From positions 1-24,418 of the IMG/VR virus record IMGVR_UViG_3300025122_000149: a stretch of DNA of 24,418 nt; one strand, given 5' to 3'. How positions within the stretch are numbered: the stretch's first letter is position 1; every line of letters begins with the position of its first letter. This document shows, one piece after another, positions 1-15,167 of the stretch. The DNA comes from a virus. The notes beneath the pieces were generated by a model. It was not told the origin of the DNA. It saw only the letters and a list, made by a program, of their open reading frames with translations, and did not search any database. The translations under genes and the position numbers were made by a program.

Positions 1-661
1 AATAATAACATAAGTCGCGAGGAGTGTCAAGGTCAAAAAGCCATTTTTCTTCTAAATTTTTCATGTTCAGCATGGCCACACTGCGGATGCGATTAATCTC
101 GGCCGGCCGAGCCATCACTCCCACTTCCGGCTCTGCATGGGCGAAGTAATTAAGGTAGTGCGCAGTTGAAAAAATGGAGGAATTCAGCCGATCAAAATAG
201 CTTTTAATAGGAACTTCCCCCAGCGCATCTTCTATGCTCATGTTGGATAATAAAGTGATAGAGTTAAACACACCGGAGCGCGCATACTCTTGCAGCACCC
301 CATACACTACGTTTTCAATCAACTTGGGAATACCGGTTAAAAGAGTAGTGTCTGGTTTAATATAGAATACATCAACCTTCTTGTGTTTCAACTGCTCCAA
401 CACAGCCAATGAATAATTGGAACTATAAGAAGAGCCCATTATAAATACTTGGACATGATCGTCCACGGTAGAGAAAAACTTTGTCAAGTCCGGAGGTTGA
501 TTTTCGTATTCCTCTGGTTCTTCAAAACGTTTTAATTTGAATTTATACTTAGACGTACGAGCTACCTTATCATTCAACACATAAACATTATATTGAGGTG
601 TTTTGCTAAATTTTTCTGCAATGGCCGAAGCACCATTGCCGATACCAATTATAGAAATCAT
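1..661 (-). CDS. Tubulin/FtsZ-superfamily-like protein, C-terminus beyond window
   Basis: My own translation from the ATG at 661 to the left edge is open for 220 codons. The start overlaps the polymerase stop as ATGA, so the two genes are probably translationally coupled. Residues 1-17 read ISIIGIGNGASAIAEKF, like the glycine-rich first loop of FtsZ. Residues 70-110 (VQVFIMGSSYSSNYSLAVL, then a beta strand ending YIKPDTTLLTG) line up by eye with the FtsZ stretch holding the GGGTGTG tubulin signature and the following TKPF.FEG strand. Residues 111-170 match the helix-strand-helix that follows, including a strand ITLLSNMSIEDAL at the place of FtsZ LITIPNDKLL. The signature loop is degenerate (GSSYSSN), so normal GTP hydrolysis is doubtful. 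A Rossmann-type nucleotide-binding protein is the main alternative. The role is unknown; filament formation or particle positioning would be inference. Confidence 0.55.
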   Translation of the reverse strand, partial: MISIIGIGNGASAIAEKFSKTPQYNVYVLNDKVARTSKYKFKLKRFEEPEEYENQPPDLTKFFSTVDDHVQVFIMGSSYSSNYSLAVLEQLKHKKVDVFYIKPDTTLLTGIPKLIENVVYGVLQEYARSGVFNSITLLSNMSIEDALGEVPIKSYFDRLNSSIFSTAHYLNYFAHAEPEVGVMARPAEINRIRSVAMLNMKNLEEKWLFDLDTPRDLCYY

Positions 662-1842
662 AAGTTTAAATCTTTTAAATCCAAATAGTTTTTGCCGGCG
701 CGCAAATTAACAAGGTAGTTCCCAATTTGATTGTCTGCGAAAGTATCTCGTATTTCCGCAATCATCTCCCGTTCTTCATCAGCCATGTCGATCACTAATT
801 CATCATGCACGATGTGTGACACAAACGATTTCTTTCCTTCAAGCATCTTATCTACCACGACTGCGCGCTCTATTACCAAATCGGCGGTGGTGCTTTGGAT
901 TAAATAGTTCAGTGCTTTACGTTTGTCCACCTTAATCTTGCGCCCAAATGGTGTTAAAATATGATCATCCCGGTACCAAGCCTCTAATACCTTTTCTCTA
1001 TCATAAACCTCCGTTTCAATAGCTTCAGACTCGGGGTTGTACAGCCAACTGAACAATAAGGTTTTAGCCTCTTCTCGCGTCACGCCCCCACCAAAAATGT
1101 TTTTTACGTTCCATTGATGAATGTCTTGCGAAGGCTGCGCCTGTTCAGAGAGACCCATCAACGTTCTCACCTCGGCCCCATTATAATCCAAAGACAAAAA
1201 CCAATCGTTCTTCGGTTTTATTAATTGACGAAATCCACGCTGGGAAGTTAGGATGGGAAATGATTCTGGGAATGTGGTTAGGCGACCGGTCACTGTACCA
1301 AATAAATTATAATTGATATAATGCGGGCCCTCCAATAATTTCTTGGCCATGGCTCGGGATGGAGTGCTATAAAAAAGTTCTTTACAGTTGTCTGGATTAA
1401 GCTGCAGTGTTTGAAATTTTATCTTATACAACAGTTTGGTAGCATCCATGAGGTGCTCGTAGCACGGCGGCTTATCATATGTCGTAAGCACATGTTCAGT
1501 AATTTTATTTTTTATCTCGCAAAACTCTTTTAGAAAGTCTTCTGGTACCAACTCAAAAATACAGTGGTCTCGCAAGTTGATTTTAGCAATTCGAAAGGAT
1601 TGTGCATAAGCTTTTAATCGTCGCTGCGCTTTTGCTAGCGGATCTTTAAGAGACGCGGGTGCTATTCTTTCTAGGGGCGCGCCCTCGCAGTACAAGGAGG
1701 CATATTCAATGTTCCCATCCGATAAAAACCCAGTATATTTCCATGTTTGTGCTATCTCTTCGGGCCAATTATCAAAATATAACTGGCCGTTCGCATAAAC
1801 ACCGACACATTCTGTTTTATCATCCAACGCTTGAAAAATCAC
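658..1842 (-). CDS. Family A DNA polymerase, polymerase domain only
   Basis: This 394-aa protein carries the palm and fingers motifs of the Pol I family. TGRLTTFPESFPILT at 185-199 matches the TGRLSS...NLQNIP motif. Motif A is LDYNGAEVR with Asp219. Motif B is R256-x3-K260-x3-F264-x3-Y268. Q316 sits in the QxTAAD-type motif, and motif C is HDE at 346-348. Phe at 264 corresponds to E. coli Phe762. The residue after Tyr268 is Asn rather than the usual Gly. The first ~170 residues show no 3'-5' exonuclease motif and no 5' nuclease, so proofreading would have to come from elsewhere. The start is GTG at 1842, because the ATG at 1844 runs straight into TGA and no other in-frame start precedes the upstream stop. 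It lies 14 nt after the 411-aa structural-type gene with no promoter of its own visible, so it is probably expressed with late genes. T4 relatives usually use a family B polymerase (gp43). Confidence 0.9.
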   Translation of the reverse strand: MIFQALDDKTECVGVYANGQLYFDNWPEEIAQTWKYTGFLSDGNIEYASLYCEGAPLERIAPASLKDPLAKAQRRLKAYAQSFRIAKINLRDHCIFELVPEDFLKEFCEIKNKITEHVLTTYDKPPCYEHLMDATKLLYKIKFQTLQLNPDNCKELFYSTPSRAMAKKLLEGPHYINYNLFGTVTGRLTTFPESFPILTSQRGFRQLIKPKNDWFLSLDYNGAEVRTLMGLSEQAQPSQDIHQWNVKNIFGGGVTREEAKTLLFSWLYNPESEAIETEVYDREKVLEAWYRDDHILTPFGRKIKVDKRKALNYLIQSTTADLVIERAVVVDKMLEGKKSFVSHIVHDELVIDMADEEREMIAEIRDTFADNQIGNYLVNLRAGKNYLDLKDLNL

Positions 1843-1856
1843 ATCAACCCCGTTCT

Positions 1857-3092
1857 TTAATAGTTACCTGACGACACGCTAGTTAGAGTACGCGACGCCT
1901 CAGTAGATGTTGCATGTATGTACTCTATAATATAACTCAAAGAGCCCCGATAGTCAAATGTTTTGTTAAGAATTCTTTCGAATATCTGTAGGGCCGTGTT
2001 GCGCCCTTGATTATAATAAAGCTCAAGACTATCATCTATTAACATTTCTTCTTCAAACGCTTTAAATTGAGATTCCTCTTCCCAAAAACGGATTTTAAAA
2101 TACAATTTTAAAAAAGTTGAATCAGGATAATTATTTTCTATTTGAGCAGGCGTATAGCTCTGAGGAACAATGATGTTGTTCTTAGTGCTCCCATTACAAT
2201 ATTCCACTTCAAGAAAGTTCTTAAGCTTAACTTTATTATACAGCCCCAAAAGAAAAAATTTAAATTGCTTATAGAAAATTAGGTCAGCCGAGGTATATCC
2301 CCCGTTTAATACAAGATCTGTGCCACCGAGTCCATAGTTGGCGGCGTAGGCAATCATAGGAGAAGAACCAATATCGGCCACAAGGCGCCATGGCACAAAA
2401 CGATCTACCATAAACCCATACGACCGACAGGCGTTCACATAAAATTCCCAATTTTTGCTCTTCACAAATCGATTGATTTTTTCCTCATCGTTAGTATAAT
2501 TCAAATCAGCTATTTCAACGACGAGCCCGGAACAGTTCATTGGGCACAGCCGGCTTTTAATATAAGCCGGCAACGTAAAAGGAAATCGTCTGGCACTTTT
2601 TTCTAATAAGATTTCTACTTCGGTTAAAAATTCATCAAAATTTTTAACTCTTATTTTTCGACGCGTAAACTCCGTTGCAATTGTAGTTTGATAGGTCGAT
2701 AGATATTGGCCGTACAGCGCTTGCGGATCTTGGTAGGCTTTATACACCACCAAGTTACTCAGAAATGTATCGTCTTTGCTGATTTGTCCACTTGCTGCGC
2801 ATCTTTTGAATTGAGCATTGAGATCATTGAAAGCATCTACCACAAAACTTGCTGCCCTTAAATTTTTGGCGGCTGCATTGCTTTTATTAAAAGCTTTAAT
2901 GGGAAGGCGCGCCGGCACAATAGGCATGAAGAGTCGATTAACGCGTCCGTATAATAGCTTTTCTCCAAAATTAAAATTAACCAAATTTTTATACTCTTCT
3001 GCAGTGCTGGCCAATGTTCCCCAATAAATATTTCTCTTGTTAAAAAGATCTCGCGTAGATTCTTTATTTGATTCGGCGTAATAGATTCCCAT
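1857..3092 (-). CDS. Putative virion/baseplate protein of unknown function (411 aa)
   Basis: I do not recognise a named family. The protein is rich in Tyr, Phe and Asn, soluble in character, without signal peptide or clear membrane segment. The middle, from about 170 to 270, has conserved-looking stretches such as LPAYIKSRLCPMNCSGLVVE and ACRSYGFMVDRFVPWRLVAD, and a Gly-Ala-rich part around 245-265. It starts only 3 nt after the stop of the 1134-aa baseplate-type gene and ends 14 nt before the polymerase, so it belongs to the same transcript. Position downstream of the tape measure and gp53-like genes suggests a baseplate or tail-tip role; this is inference from context only. Confidence 0.6.
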   Translation of the reverse strand: MGIYYAESNKESTRDLFNKRNIYWGTLASTAEEYKNLVNFNFGEKLLYGRVNRLFMPIVPARLPIKAFNKSNAAAKNLRAASFVVDAFNDLNAQFKRCAASGQISKDDTFLSNLVVYKAYQDPQALYGQYLSTYQTTIATEFTRRKIRVKNFDEFLTEVEILLEKSARRFPFTLPAYIKSRLCPMNCSGLVVEIADLNYTNDEEKINRFVKSKNWEFYVNACRSYGFMVDRFVPWRLVADIGSSPMIAYAANYGLGGTDLVLNGGYTSADLIFYKQFKFFLLGLYNKVKLKNFLEVEYCNGSTKNNIIVPQSYTPAQIENNYPDSTFLKLYFKIRFWEEESQFKAFEEEMLIDDSLELYYNQGRNTALQIFERILNKTFDYRGSLSYIIEYIHATSTEASRTLTSVSSGNY

Positions 3093-3095
3093 TTT

Positions 3096-6000
3096 CTAAA
3101 ATAAATCCTCCGTCCCTTCATCCAACTTCGTGGTTACTGTATCGGTTAGTTCCAAAATCTTTTCCTCCGTAAGGCTCTCGAAAAATCCTTTGTCCTCTGA
3201 GTTGCTTAAATTTTTCACCCACGCCGGACACTTAGATTTGCTATTGGTTCCTGCCTCGCGTTGGCGCTCGCGCGCATCTTCACACTCTTGATTTTCCTGT
3301 TCACCTTCTATTTGAGCAACCCACTTGGCTGTAATTTTTGTCTCTGCTTTGCCGGGAGCAAAGTTATGTTCTGAACGAATAATCATACAATACCCTCCAA
3401 TACCATATCGTGTCAAGTCTAGTAAAAGCTCTTCACTATCATAAGCTACCGTATTAGGTGCAAAGCCGCGCGGATCTACGAATATGTAGGTACCCGGAAA
3501 AGTTTTAGCATTCGCATAACAATCTACATTAACATCGTATACCTCGCGTAGCTGTTGCAAGCCGTCGAAGCCTTCTTTTTGGAAACGTACTTCTTTCAAA
3601 TATTTAGCATCAGTTTTAGAAAGACTAATTGTCTTTACGATGCCGCGGGGACGACCAATCAGGTAATGAAAAATACCATTGGACTCGTCTTCACTACGTT
3701 TGCCATTCATCTTTTCTATCGGCTGTGTGCGACCGGCAAAGTAGACCAAATAATTCATTTCGTTTTGAACGCCGCCGTCCCCAAGAGGAAGATCACGCGG
3801 TCCCGAAATATTGAGCAACGGGATGGGCAGGCCCGCAGCTTTAATATTGAGGACAGAAGTATTGCCATGGCTAATTAAATATTTAGTTATTTCATCATGC
3901 TTGGAATTACTATCTTTATAAGATGTGACGGCAGCTTGATTCACTCGCACTTTTTGTTTAGTAGAAAAGCCGCGGAAACAGGTGTCGTTGTTTAAAAAGT
4001 TTTTAACGAGATCGTTGAGCAAATCATTTAAAAATTTACTTAGGTTATATCGTGTCTCTTCTCGTTTAAGAAGTTTATCGGTTAGCCACTCTAAAAAATA
4101 ACGAACCGAAACTGGCACATCTCCAAAATTGATATGACGCATCGTTTCACCATCGCGAGGATCCATTATTTCCACGGGCCCCAACACAGCTCTAAATTTT
4201 TCAAACTGTTTTTTAAACTGCTTATGAGAATCTATTTCTTGGTCCTTTTCCTCCTCGTCTAGATTGAGAAGTTTGCCGTGATCATAAACATCTCCGTCAG
4301 AAAAAGTCTCTAGTCTCTTCCCAATCCCATGTAAAATTACATCTAATAGATCGCTTACATAAAAAAATCCGATGTTTTCTTCAGTGGGGTTTGTCGCCCT
4401 CAAAGACAGTTCCAGTTGGGATTTAAGCTTCTCATCGGCCGCACCTTCATCTTCCCATTGACCTTTATATTCGTTCATTAAATCTGTATCTAATTCATCA
4501 GCGGGAGAATCTAATATCTCCGGTCCTCCTTCTTGTTCAAAGAAGGGCCCCAGCGTGTTAAACGTTTTAAGAGTCTGGTGTGTAACGTTAATGTATCGTA
4601 TTTTATCTGCTTCTCTCATTCGCGTTAGGAGAGACCTCATATTCTCAAATTTGTCTACGCGAATGTCACCATTTTTAGCAAGGGACTCTTTCCATTCTGC
4701 TATCTCTTCTGATTTACACAGCTTGCTTAATTCTTCATATTGATATTTTCGCGCCATGACGCGGATGGCTACGCCCTCCTCGTAAAAAATATCAAACTGA
4801 GGCTGATCATAAAAATCCTCCACAAAGGCCAAATAATTAATAGTAAAAGTCACTCGTCCCATATCATCAATATTAAATTCATGGATGGTGGGGGTTAAAT
4901 TTAAAGTCACATAGGATTCTGCAATCGCACTCAACAAAGCCTGTCGTTCGGATTCGGTTTTATTGGTAAACCATGTTTCCTCTACGGGGCGCGCAAACCC
5001 AACAATGGCCTTAAGTCTAAAATGTAATTTACTTAGTTCGCTTTGCGCCTCTGGGGAATTTTGCCACGAACACTGGAGCGGCTCGTTAACGTCAGGCTCA
5101 TTTGCCGCTCCCCGTTTGTCCGACCATGTTTTTAATGCCAGCTGCGCATACTGGTATGGGCGAGTTAGGTATTTAGGGTTATCGGGATCGGTGTTGTCCT
5201 TGTATGTGGCAGTGCGCAATTTAAGTAACTCATCAAAACTGCTAGCAAAAATAGTTAATTTAGCTTTAATACTTTTTTTAGCCGCGAAGGGGTTATTGCC
5301 GTCATAGGTAAAGGAAAAATCTTTTATCCCTGTTCCAAAGCCGCGCTTTGTCGTATCTGCAAAGAGACTTTCCACATCGCCGGCGGAAGCATATGCATCA
5401 AAATTAAATTCATGTTGGTACTCGGTGCCATTTTCATCAAAAACTTTAAAAATTCTAATCATGGGCTGCAAACTAGAAAGTTCAGGTGTGGCCATATCAA
5501 AAAATTTGTTTTGAGCGGGGTGTTGAGTCACCCGATTCATAAATCCATAGGGATCACCGTTCACCAAGAGCGAAGCATTTCCCGCATTAGCATAATAAGG
5601 CAGCGGTTTGACCCAGCTTTCGTTCTCCACAGGCATCGGAGAGGATGAAGGAATCCTTTCCAGCTCTCTCTTAGCGCCGGCGAGATTATAAATTTGGGCC
5701 AGCAAGAAACACTGTTCTTTAAAATTAATTTGGGTGCGCCAAAAAGAAGCAACAACCGCTTTTTCAAGAGCCTGGAAGTCTTCTTGATTTTCTTTAAGGG
5801 CGGCCTCAGAGTTTTTGGCTGATCCTGTCCCATAGTCCTCAGCAAAAGCTTGACGCATATTGCCCATACGATCCATGTACTCTCCCAGGTCACCCTGCAT
5901 CGTAAGAGCCGCACAGGTTTGTAGGCCTAATTCATACATGACACTAATGGAATCACCCAAACAATTTCCTCTATACCATCCATATGATTTTTGGCCTGGG

Positions 6001-6500
6001 CTGTAGCTGGGAAGATCCTCTATTTTCTTTTGATAACCTTCGTGCCACTCCTCCAGCCTAAGATTGTTGCTCGTTAATTCATTAATTTGCGACAACGTGA
6101 GAGTATATAATTTATCTGCCGGCAGCCTGTCAGTTAAAAGAGTCATCAAAGTGCCCGTGTTGTCGTCGGCGTAAACGACAGCGTCCTGAGCTTGGGCCTT
6201 GAGAATGTCACTATTAAATTCCTCGCTTGCCGATTTAAGGGCGCTCATAAATGCAGCGAGGGTGCCGAAAGGATTGGCATTGGTTCCCGTTATCGCCGTA
6301 TTAGTAAAGTAATCACTTTTACTAAATTGCTCGGGGTGTGGGCAACTGTCCTGGCTGTACCAGGGTGTTGCCTCGTCAATTTGCTCCCATTGGGCCGCGG
6401 CAGCATCATGTAAACTATCGAGATAATCAACCGCAAATTCATACATTCCGCTGTAGTCAATAAGTGGGGTGTCTTTTGTGAAGCAAATGTCTTTTGCCAT
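3096..6500 (-). CDS. Large baseplate-type structural protein (1134 aa)
   Basis: This is the largest gene in the window. It starts 1 nt after the stop of the LysM/gp53-like gene, so its ribosome binding site lies inside that gene. Residues 1-300 are mainly helical and acidic. About 345-575 looks like a beta-rich tail domain, with MIRIFKVFDENGTEYQHEF, a segment GFGTGIKDFSFTYDGNNPF at 387-405, then KAKLTIFASSFDELLKLR and later HEFNIDDMGRVTFTINY. The region from about 590 to 830 is charged and helical. The last third has an LLNISGPRDLPLG segment and a pattern near the C-terminus (YIFVDPRGFAPN, then YGIGGYCMIIRSEHNFAPG) that I associate with hub or baseplate proteins of large myoviruses. A central baseplate hub/wedge component is likely, but I cannot assign it to a specific T4 protein. 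No enzymatic motif was seen. Confidence 0.6.
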   Translation of the reverse strand: MAKDICFTKDTPLIDYSGMYEFAVDYLDSLHDAAAAQWEQIDEATPWYSQDSCPHPEQFSKSDYFTNTAITGTNANPFGTLAAFMSALKSASEEFNSDILKAQAQDAVVYADDNTGTLMTLLTDRLPADKLYTLTLSQINELTSNNLRLEEWHEGYQKKIEDLPSYSPGQKSYGWYRGNCLGDSISVMYELGLQTCAALTMQGDLGEYMDRMGNMRQAFAEDYGTGSAKNSEAALKENQEDFQALEKAVVASFWRTQINFKEQCFLLAQIYNLAGAKRELERIPSSSPMPVENESWVKPLPYYANAGNASLLVNGDPYGFMNRVTQHPAQNKFFDMATPELSSLQPMIRIFKVFDENGTEYQHEFNFDAYASAGDVESLFADTTKRGFGTGIKDFSFTYDGNNPFAAKKSIKAKLTIFASSFDELLKLRTATYKDNTDPDNPKYLTRPYQYAQLALKTWSDKRGAANEPDVNEPLQCSWQNSPEAQSELSKLHFRLKAIVGFARPVEETWFTNKTESERQALLSAIAESYVTLNLTPTIHEFNIDDMGRVTFTINYLAFVEDFYDQPQFDIFYEEGVAIRVMARKYQYEELSKLCKSEEIAEWKESLAKNGDIRVDKFENMRSLLTRMREADKIRYINVTHQTLKTFNTLGPFFEQEGGPEILDSPADELDTDLMNEYKGQWEDEGAADEKLKSQLELSLRATNPTEENIGFFYVSDLLDVILHGIGKRLETFSDGDVYDHGKLLNLDEEEKDQEIDSHKQFKKQFEKFRAVLGPVEIMDPRDGETMRHINFGDVPVSVRYFLEWLTDKLLKREETRYNLSKFLNDLLNDLVKNFLNNDTCFRGFSTKQKVRVNQAAVTSYKDSNSKHDEITKYLISHGNTSVLNIKAAGLPIPLLNISGPRDLPLGDGGVQNEMNYLVYFAGRTQPIEKMNGKRSEDESNGIFHYLIGRPRGIVKTISLSKTDAKYLKEVRFQKEGFDGLQQLREVYDVNVDCYANAKTFPGTYIFVDPRGFAPNTVAYDSEELLLDLTRYGIGGYCMIIRSEHNFAPGKAETKITAKWVAQIEGEQENQECEDARERQREAGTNSKSKCPAWVKNLSNSEDKGFFESLTEEKILELTDTVTTKLDEGTEDLF

Positions 6501-12146: not shown

Positions 12147-15100
12147 TTAATCATCGAATGATGCTCCCGTAGACATGATAACAAAGTCGATAGCAATGTA
12201 TTCAATTGCTCGGGCCGGCTTAATCATGATCTTCGCATACAAAATATTCTGATCAATCAAGTCAGGCGTCGTCGTGGACTCGTCCAGTACCAGCTTATAA
12301 TCGGTGATACCATACGTAGTTTTAACGTTAGCAAGGAAGGGCTCCACCAGGGAGATAAAGCGATTCCATGTTGCCTGCACATTTTGTTCAAAAAGAATTT
12401 GTGTCGAAAGAACGGAAATTTCTTTCTTCAGGTAAATCACCAGTCGTCGGACGTTAATCCGGTCGAGGGCCGACTGACGCTCTTGGAGAGTTTTCTGGCC
12501 AAAGACCACAATCCCACTAGACGGGAAAGAAGCGATGGGGTTAATGTTGCTCTCGTATAACGTGTCTCGATCCTTGGATGTGAGACGCTGGGTGATACCG
12601 GTAATAGGAATTCCAGCTGCGCCTTCGGAAAGGCCGCCTCGGTTAAAGCCAGCCGGTGCAAACCAAATTGCAGATGCTCGCTCTGACGAAGCTAAAACAC
12701 CCATCATGGCAACCGAAGGGGGCACCCACAGCATTGCGCCGGTACTCTCGTCTCGCGTTTGAACCCAGGGATAGAAAGTCGTTCCATAGCTGGAGTCAAT
12801 CCTGCGGTTGCGAAGTGCCGTTGCAGCCGTTGTGGGAGTTGTCCCAATCCGATCAGCTTTGTCGCTCTGATAGCCTTCAGCAGCGGGCTTATAAACATCA
12901 GGAAGGTCAATGAGAGCAAGAGCATCTGCACGCTCTTCGCAAACCCTAACCTCATGAGTTGTTAAACTAGCATTAGTAAGGCCCGGGACCGACAAGAGAT
13001 TCATGTTAATATACTCTGGATCGGCTACCGTATCGATGGCGCGCCGGAAGGTATGATAAACATAACTATTGTCTTCAGTTGAAGAATCCGACATTTCGCG
13101 GTTAGCCACCGGGTCGGGCTTCATAATATCAAATCCGTCAAAGCCTCCATAAACGGGACACGTAAAGCGGTCGATGCCTCCCAGCAACAATGCATTATAA
13201 GAGGAGGATGCGGCAGTATAAGAAAATCCTAACACTCGCGAGCCAGATAAATAGTACCAATTTCCAGCATCGCTCTTCGCCACATCGTCAAGAGAAAAAA
13301 CGTATGCGTAATCATCGACACCTGTGGTCGAATACGGAGTCTTGGCGTTATCGCCGCCGCCACCCGTATATCCTTGATACAATAATGTATGGAAGTCTGC
13401 GACACTAGCGTCCGGCGTTGTCCCATCAGCTTCGCGAGTCGTCTGCATTCCGAAGTAAGCATCCGTCTGGTCGGTCAAGCCACCATCGGAAGCGGAATTG
13501 CGTAAACGCACAGACGGGAAGACAAACGACCCCGTGCAAGAGCCACTAAGATCGGACAGGCCAACTCCTGTGCCACCGGAAAGATAAGTAACATAACCGG
13601 TCGCACTATACGAGTCGTTTCCTGGCAGGGGGCGATTTGGGACGTCGGCGCCACCGGTGATGAAGGTGTCACTCAAGACCGTTCCGGCGGTGAACGTCTC
13701 GCCGCCGAGGGGTATAAGTGAGCAGGCGCCCGAGGTGTTCAAATCATAAACCGCCCTGAACCGCGGAGGAGCAAAATATCCAAAGGGTAAGAGAGTTGCG
13801 TCGGTAGCTCCAGCTTCCACATCGCTATTCATTTCAACATACATAAACTTAGATTGGTTATCGTATTCCCCAAAAGTCCGTAGACGTTTCTGGGTCGTGT
13901 CCCACTGCGTATACTTGTCTCCAATTACACGCGCCACATAATTGGGCGATGTAGGATCGAGATTAAGATTATCAAACCTCTCCATTATCTCAACCGCATT
14001 ATCTGTGTCGGTGATGGAACGAATGAGAACCGAAAAGGTCCCATACTCATAAGTTGAGGTAGTAGAACGACGTACATTACTAATTGAAACTTTGCAACTG
14101 CGCTGCAGCCATTCACCATGTCCGCGTCCAACCAAGCGGAAAAGTCGCTGCTGGTTAAACGGCACATAATCGGCGGAGGCCCCTAGCGCCTGACCAATAA
14201 ACCAGCCGGTCCGCCCTTCGCGGGAAGCCTGGGGTTTCATGTCGGCGGGAGTATCGGTGCCGCCGCCACCATAAACTGGCATCAGAACAGCAATACTTTC
14301 AGTGGTCAAGCCGCGGTCGCGGATTTCTTGCTCGTAAGACTGACCAAGCCAATATACTTTAGAAGTTGACGCGTCAGTAGAATAAAATGTAGATCCGCTG
14401 ATCAACTGAGGATTGGTGTTGAACTGATTACGAATGAAATTATCGCTCTGATCATCAAAATTGAAGGAAATGGTTTCGGTGGTCTGGTTGGTGCCTGCCA
14501 CTTCAAGAGTCAAAAGTCCGCTCGTATTATCTCCACCAGTACCAAACAAAGTATTACTAGAAGCGGTGATAACAGTCGAGCCTATATTGCCATTAGTCGC
14601 GCGGCCGCCATAAACCGCTCCAGTTAATGTAAGGCTTCCTTGATTAAGATAAAAAATTGCCCCCAGGCTGGCAGTCCCTAAGTTGTTCCGACCGCCGGCG
14701 CCAGCGTCAGCGGTTTCGGAGGACTGACTTGGGAAGAGCCAAAGGCCGTACGCACCTGCATTAGTAGCAGCCAGGTCGGCGGGCGCAGTTCTTAAGGTCT
14801 GCCACCCTGCAGCCGCATCGCCGCCAGCAGCGCTTCCGACGCTAGTTTCCTGACCCAACAACCGAACATAAGTAAGAGGAGCAACGTTTGCTTTCAAGAA
14901 TGCTTTAGCCGCGTACGTTCCATACATGGGAGACTGATAATTTCCGTGTCGTGAAATATCACCACCACCAAAACCGGGGGCAGTGTCTCCAAACATTTCC
15001 ACAAAGTCCGAATAAGATTGGACCGAGACAGGCTGCATCGCTAGGCCGCGACGTGAACGTCCGACTACGACAGGGCCAATGGCTTCTGCTGATTTGGGGA

Positions 15101-15167
15101 TGAAAGAATCATCAATTTCGTGAATAAACACCCCAGGAGATACAAATTTAAAACTTTTGACTGACAT
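12147..15167 (-). CDS. 18: Contractile tail sheath protein (gp18-like)
   Basis: This 1006-aa protein has clear sheath ends. The N-terminus reads FVSPGVFIHEIDDSFIPKS with a following IGPVVVGRSRRG. The C-terminal ~150 residues carry NVRRLVIYLKKEISVLSTQ, a TWNRFISLVEPFL helix and a final strand AIEYIAIDFVIMSTG, the handshake domain linking neighbouring subunits. The central catalytic-looking stretch ASSERASAIWFAPAGFNRGG is the standard sheath core motif. T4 gp18 is 659 aa, so about 350 extra residues are inserted, mostly Gly/Ser/Thr-rich beta material between about 120 and 680. These probably form surface decorations. The gene sits between the gp15-like gene and the tube gene. Confidence 0.95.
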   Translation of the reverse strand: MSVKSFKFVSPGVFIHEIDDSFIPKSAEAIGPVVVGRSRRGLAMQPVSVQSYSDFVEMFGDTAPGFGGGDISRHGNYQSPMYGTYAAKAFLKANVAPLTYVRLLGQETSVGSAAGGDAAAGWQTLRTAPADLAATNAGAYGLWLFPSQSSETADAGAGGRNNLGTASLGAIFYLNQGSLTLTGAVYGGRATNGNIGSTVITASSNTLFGTGGDNTSGLLTLEVAGTNQTTETISFNFDDQSDNFIRNQFNTNPQLISGSTFYSTDASTSKVYWLGQSYEQEIRDRGLTTESIAVLMPVYGGGGTDTPADMKPQASREGRTGWFIGQALGASADYVPFNQQRLFRLVGRGHGEWLQRSCKVSISNVRRSTTSTYEYGTFSVLIRSITDTDNAVEIMERFDNLNLDPTSPNYVARVIGDKYTQWDTTQKRLRTFGEYDNQSKFMYVEMNSDVEAGATDATLLPFGYFAPPRFRAVYDLNTSGACSLIPLGGETFTAGTVLSDTFITGGADVPNRPLPGNDSYSATGYVTYLSGGTGVGLSDLSGSCTGSFVFPSVRLRNSASDGGLTDQTDAYFGMQTTREADGTTPDASVADFHTLLYQGYTGGGGDNAKTPYSTTGVDDYAYVFSLDDVAKSDAGNWYYLSGSRVLGFSYTAASSSYNALLLGGIDRFTCPVYGGFDGFDIMKPDPVANREMSDSSTEDNSYVYHTFRRAIDTVADPEYINMNLLSVPGLTNASLTTHEVRVCEERADALALIDLPDVYKPAAEGYQSDKADRIGTTPTTAATALRNRRIDSSYGTTFYPWVQTRDESTGAMLWVPPSVAMMGVLASSERASAIWFAPAGFNRGGLSEGAAGIPITGITQRLTSKDRDTLYESNINPIASFPSSGIVVFGQKTLQERQSALDRINVRRLVIYLKKEISVLSTQILFEQNVQATWNRFISLVEPFLANVKTTYGITDYKLVLDESTTTPDLIDQNILYAKIMIKPARAIEYIAIDFVIMSTGASFDD

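Follow-up and report, generated by a model that had tools for sequence, protein, structure and literature searches.

What is a protein with the fold of tubulin doing next to a DNA polymerase in the genome of an ocean phage, when most of the glycines of the tubulin signature have gone? Phage tubulins are known mainly as single active proteins, from nucleus-forming jumbo phages and from partition systems. The gene that raises the question sits at the very start of a 24,418-nucleotide stretch of viral DNA (the window; positions 1 to 24,418 of IMG/VR record IMGVR_UViG_3300025122_000149). An earlier sequence-only reading took it for a divergent relative of tubulin and FtsZ. Our analysis gives the protein, by prediction, a complete tubulin/FtsZ fold and finds a second tubulin, with its signature intact, in the same phages.

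The phage and its gene

The window covers part of the genome of a T4-like myovirus, and the nearest matches to its major capsid protein come from Far-T4 phages, namely an uncultured 484-kb phage, Flavobacterium phage immuto, Microcystis phage Mel-JY01 and Rhodothermus phage RM378. At least 566 IMG/VR stretches, on marine viral contigs of a Far-T4 lineage, encode a relative of the degenerate tubulin, and its carriers, T4-like phages of the ocean, form an abundant group without cultured members. No relative turned up among the 50,697 phage records searched, nor in one genome from each of 84,980 prokaryote species (a scan with short conserved peptides, which may miss distant relatives). A search of GTDB genomes for this tubulin and for the canonical one described below came back empty and gave no link to a host. 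Nor did cultured Far-T4 phages yield a distant homologue. Elsewhere in the window (12147-15167) lies a tail sheath protein of 1006 aa, in which the PHROG sheath matches fall mainly within residues 644-1004, leaving a long additional part.

The gene and its immediate neighbors are as follows.

2..661, minus strand: degenerate tubulin/FtsZ-fold gene (open reading frame; residues 1-220 of 280, the 3' end lying outside the window)
658..661, minus strand: ATGA overlap of the polA stop codon (TGA) and the degenerate tubulin start codon (ATG), read from the sequence
658..1842, minus strand: family A DNA polymerase (polA), 394 aa (PF00476, E 4.8e-16; phrog_17)
1857..3092, minus strand: 411-aa protein without a Pfam or PHROG match

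The frame runs from an ATG at 661 to the window edge at 2, which gives 220 aa of a protein that is 280 aa at full length (full copies are present in L002 and L082); an IMG/VR contig holds the 220 residues at 100% identity together with the remainder of the gene. The three motifs on which the sequence-only reading had built its case are all there: GIGNGAS at residues 6-12, VQVFIMGSSYSSN at 70-82 and YIKPDTTLLTG at 100-110. We sampled the family through 292 fetched stretches, yielding 111 unique full-length proteins, 84 of them below 90% identity. The dN/dS ratio is 0.05-0.08 in the two pairs with measurable dS, and the gene is under purifying selection. That it is a real gene follows from these ratios, from the 292 coding stretches and from the overlap with polA, present in all 264 loci in which the start is visible. 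The same overlap suggests that the polymerase and the degenerate tubulin are translationally coupled. One match, at 162045-162893 of the 195.5-kb contig G039, contains a single in-frame TGA, which may be a sequencing error, recoding or a broken copy.

Gene order is strict. The 411-aa gene comes first (210/210 loci with enough upstream DNA), then polA (263/263), the degenerate tubulin and gp32 (229/229), although these counts, like that of the ATGA overlap, are not independent, the loci sharing descent and some of them repeating one contig. The search of related contigs for the polymerase and this gene together, which the sequence-only reading had proposed, finds the pair throughout. The polymerase has the polymerase domain only, and a separate 3'-5' exonuclease was not located. 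Beyond gp32 lie RecA/UvsX, a 5'-3' exonuclease, a DnaB-type helicase and a class II RNR. The gene had been placed at the end of a phage structural block. It does adjoin the tail/baseplate block, but because gp32 and these other genes follow, its position is better described as the junction with the DNA-replication block than as simply a structural end. Also in the window, a 1134-aa protein (3096-6500) has no significant family match.

A tubulin fold seen through structure prediction

An AlphaFold2 model of the degenerate protein, made from 31 family members, is confident (mean pLDDT 86.9, pTM 0.87). Its elements come in the tubulin/FtsZ order: S1 2-7, H1 8-20, S2 24-30, S3 40-42, S4 69-75, H4 79-89, S5 95-102, H5 111-129, S6 134-139, H6 140-147 and the core helix H7 at 152-175, followed by the C-terminal domain. 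Against the PDB, Foldseek gives FtsZ (E 9.3e-12) and TubZ (1.8e-11) as the best of 697 matches at E <= 0.001. VIA alignments covering residues 1-280 reach Z scores of 23.4 for CetZ, 22.2 for TubZ, 21.4 for FtsZ and about 21 for tubulins. The best PDB matches listed by both programs all belong to the tubulin/FtsZ superfamily and extend over the full chain (PhuZ chains are not among the best 50 VIA matches listed, which says nothing against a relation to PhuZ). In a library of viral structures, FtsZ and tubulin proteins make up most of the named matches at E <= 0.001, with Rossmann-type epimerases next at about 1e-3. As far as prediction can settle it, the degenerate protein has a complete tubulin/FtsZ fold, since the model, Foldseek and VIA agree on the overall architecture, core helix H7 and C-terminal domain included, by which we judge membership of the superfamily. 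The relation guessed from the letters is borne out, and its assignment of loops fits the order of strands and helices in the model.

Sequence comparison sees none of this. Searches of Pfam, PHROGs, NCBIfam and PDB profiles returned no significant match for the degenerate protein, PF00091 and the FtsZ chains of the PDB included, and gave weak matches to Rossmann families (GARS_N, shikimate dehydrogenase). With hhalign, the comparison with the canonical tubulin reached E 0.03 over 30 columns. That with FtsZ gave a collinear alignment from S1 to H7 of about 149 columns, whose score was reached by 90 of 150 block-shuffled profiles (6/150 with a larger set). We do not use this alignment as evidence because shuffled profiles reach its score. 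All attempts to prove homology from sequence failed, whether by these profile searches or by hhalign comparison with the canonical paralogue and with a small set of FtsZ sequences. Significant similarity of sequence or profile is supportive, not required, for diverged members of a superfamily, and of the checks that the sequence-only reading had suggested, the profile search came back empty while the model made the fold relation visible. A part of the tubulin superfamily is therefore invisible to sequence profiles and missing from Pfam, PHROGs and NCBIfam.

Could the model have been misled by a Rossmann-type protein that is no tubulin at all? The blank profile searches, the weak GARS_N and shikimate dehydrogenase matches and an hhalign score to FtsZ not clearly above the shuffles would fit. 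The confident model has a core helix H7 and a C-terminal domain, both absent from Rossmann enzymes; VIA Z scores exceed 20 over the whole chain; and in the viral library some eight orders of magnitude in E-value separate the best FtsZ match from the far weaker Rossmann matches. We rejected a Rossmann oxidoreductase on the fold (from the VIA scores and the ranking of matches in the viral library) and regard any Rossmann reading as very improbable. A plain Rossmann or unrelated fold was the outcome named in advance as fatal to the tubulin idea, and the model shows a tubulin/FtsZ fold instead.

What the protein has lost and what it has kept

We mapped the loops of the degenerate protein by secondary structure and scored conservation over the 84 distinct sequences.

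626..646, minus strand: T1 glycine loop GIGNGAS, residues 6-12 (at S1/H1 of the model; G6 and G8 invariant, S12 in 81/84)
416..436, minus strand: T4 loop GSSYSSN, residues 76-82, replacing GGGTGTG (after S4 and starting H4; S80 in 80/84, N82 in 80/84)
332..355, minus strand: T5 loop, residues 103-110 (between S5 and H5; P103, D104 and L107 invariant, G110 in 83/84)
242..247, minus strand: T6, residues S139-N140 (at the end of S6; S139 invariant, N140 in 81/84)
137..208, minus strand: core helix H7 of the model, residues 152-175 (K153 and N160 invariant, position 156 Y or F)
89..136, minus strand: T7-equivalent loop, residues 176-191 (conserved E-P-E-I-G, not NxDxxD; no H8 helix afterwards)

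The signature GGGTG(T/S)G of catalytic GTPases is found in none of the 84 sequences. The family pattern in T4 is G76-S-S-[YFML]-S-S-N, in which G76 is the one signature glycine retained, much as the sequence-only reading had described (glycines mostly replaced by Ser, Tyr and Asn). In the model only a short segment remains of the T3 and H3 stretch, and there is no H8. Having lost H8 and the T3 loop with H3 as well as its T4 signature, the protein is unlikely to hydrolyse GTP in the manner of FtsZ. The NxDxxD motif of T7 is absent too, yet the loop in its place has two conserved glutamates, E177 and E179 (mapped by secondary structure), and so we say of catalysis that it is likely lost, not that its loss is proven.

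The pocket itself looks better preserved. N160 is invariant, position 156 is Y or F and N140 is kept in 81/84, at positions assigned to guanine contact by secondary structure rather than by superposition; Y/F156 and N160 share the spacing of F183 and N187 of E. coli FtsZ, the residues that contact guanine there. Mean entropy is 0.41 bits at the positions mapped to the pocket and 1.25 bits elsewhere in residues 1-175, the pocket positions having been chosen partly with knowledge of their conservation. Taken as whole loops with model boundaries, T4-H4 scores 0.66 and T5 0.67. From its T1, T5, T6 and H7 residues, the protein probably keeps a pocket the size of a guanine nucleotide. The region of H6 (residues 140-151) is variable, with a mean entropy of 1.74, and the C-terminal strands are the most conserved part of the protein (0.08 bits for residues 254-260, 0.48 bits for 264-274).

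A second, canonical tubulin

Searching the longest contigs with PF00091 brought up a separate gene of about 380 aa above the Pfam cut-off in all four of those first tested. Its product scores 42 bits against a cut-off of 33, with further matches to FtsZ chains at E 2.6e-9 and to NCBIfam ftsZ at E 4.4e-15. The gene is represented by loci L154-L157 and L164-L243. In the protein AGGGGGTGSS and SFD.KD are invariant, so that the GGGTG motif and the T7-type aspartates (SFDSKD) of a tubulin GTPase are both in place. The N-terminus has a conserved acidic extension of about 65 aa (NEFDFLPPAEPPPSF...EDFGMVEDFGLQMEYSDEDLLP). Between the same genomes this protein is 85-96% identical, compared with 61-75% for the degenerate one. 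In cultured phage records we found no match to it except a weak one, gp138 of Bacillus phage G. An AlphaFold2 model of the canonical paralogue was poor (pLDDT 51, from a shallow alignment) and was not used.

Like the degenerate one, the canonical gene comes after a DNA-processing gene, here for an SbcD-SbcC fusion (with an ATGA overlap in L164); a primase and a RuvC-like resolvase lie upstream, terminase and portal downstream. On both sides of it (L169, L191, L204, L219, L225) are many small genes that share a leader, such as MKITKxQLKQIIKEEL or MKLxMENWxKFxNE. These leaders resemble the capsid-targeting sequences of internal head proteins in T4.

Thirteen contigs extend over both places, and each of them carries both tubulins on the same strand (G001-G004, G007, G013, G033, G036, G039, G040, G044, G048 and G052). 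The canonical gene lies 38.8-47.0 kb upstream of the degenerate one, where the contig end cuts the canonical gene in 3 of the 13 and the spacing in G039 assumes a circular 195.5-kb contig. Every contig in which only one tubulin is seen stops short of where the other should lie; the closest case is G012, with 37.6 kb upstream, just under the smallest spacing observed. The window itself ends some 15 kb or more before that place.

What might the pair do?

The reading we prefer, with a probability of about 0.45, is that the degenerate protein is a non-hydrolysing pseudotubulin that partners the canonical paralogue and links phage DNA in replication, or replication proteins, to its filament. The canonical tubulin, signature intact, has the features required of a GTPase that makes filaments and would form a GTP-driven one. 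The degenerate protein, co-produced with the replication polymerase, would act on that filament as a non-hydrolysing cap, nucleator or adaptor and tie replicating phage DNA or replication proteins to it; DNA so joined would be held or placed in the cell. The fold, the missing signature, purifying selection, the fixed gene order and the presence of both tubulins come from computation; that the protein binds nucleotide without hydrolysing it, interacts with the canonical tubulin and is linked to DNA is what we infer. Such a partnership would explain the co-occurrence, the position in the replication block and the selective loss of the signature. Against it, the two genes are 39-47 kb apart and not in one operon, sequence profiles give no link between the two proteins, the window stops short of where its canonical gene would be, and the known phage tubulins, PhuZ and TubZ, function without a pseudotubulin as far as is known. 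Co-occurrence inside one phage lineage could also be common descent only. The bolder statement, that marine Far-T4 phages have an obligate two-tubulin cytoskeleton in which the pseudotubulin couples the replication machinery to a GTPase-tubulin filament, we hold as doubtful.

The main rival keeps the protein at the replisome. A tubulin fold may have been borrowed for an accessory that works with the polymerase or gp32, for instance as a nucleotide-sensing or bridging subunit, with no role in filaments. Its invariant placement between polA and gp32, the start/stop overlap with polA, and C-terminal strands (254-260, 264-274) conserved as for a fixed protein contact all speak for this, but it leaves the canonical tubulin in 13 of 13 contigs unexplained, and we think it rather unlikely. 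An FtsZ-like fold stripped of its hydrolysis motif would also suit a mimic that inserts itself into host FtsZ filaments, or caps them, and blocks division. Phage inhibitors of FtsZ do exist, T7 Gp0.4 and lambda Kil among them, with other folds. A strongly conserved gene encoded in the replication block is unlike the typical early genes of host takeover, and a poison of host division seems improbable to us. Nor do we give much credence to a tubulin that polymerises by itself with a non-standard site, in which the Ser-rich T4 would bind phosphate and E177 and E179 would replace the T7 aspartates. The Ser and Asn residues of T4 and the E-P-E-I-G motif are indeed conserved, but T3/H3 and H8 are missing in the model, and the sequence varies in the H6 region, where the upper longitudinal face usually lies. 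If the pseudotubulin does partner the canonical tubulin, an abundant ocean phage lineage has split a cytoskeleton into a catalytic member and a pseudo-enzyme, and the tethering of phage replication complexes to filaments becomes testable.

Comparison with known systems

Among the open-access papers searched, none names Far-T4 and tubulin together, and neither FtsZ nor a cytoskeleton is mentioned in the paper on Far-T4 genomes (PMC4360716). We regard the signature-less tubulin family as new, and its setting in a genome with two tubulins is undescribed in the open-access literature searched. The Far-T4 phages RM378, immuto and Mel-JY01 have a capsid protein akin to that of the window, but their records hold no match to either tubulin. 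With CetZ, FtsZ and TubZ the degenerate protein has its entire fold in common, from the GTPase domain through core helix H7 to the C-terminal domain (VIA Z scores of 21-23). Unlike them, it is 280 aa long, has lost GGGTGTG, lacks T3/H3 and H8, and shows no significant sequence similarity to them.

Strongly diverged members of the superfamily have been seen before. Makarova and Koonin (2010) described FtsZl-1 and FtsZl-2, highly diverged FtsZ-like families that keep GGGTG(S/T)G (PMC2875224); the degenerate phage family is likewise highly diverged, but it has lost that motif and keeps H7 and the C-terminal domain. PhuZ of phiKZ-type phages and TubZ of phage-borne partition systems are likewise tubulin-superfamily proteins encoded by phages. 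Both are single, catalytically intact tubulins, whereas here a degenerate tubulin exists beside a canonical one in a T4-type phage. Reviews of jumbo phages describe proteins of the PhuZ and TubZ types (PMC7824862, PMC13282480), and PhuZ, a single tubulin, centres phage DNA and carries capsids (PMC13282480). Two tubulin-family proteins in one genome also bring to mind BtubA/BtubB, alpha/beta-tubulin and archaeal FtsZ1/FtsZ2, and the phage pair differs from these in that one member is without the signature. In BtubA/BtubB, alpha/beta-tubulin and FtsZ1/FtsZ2, both members retain it.
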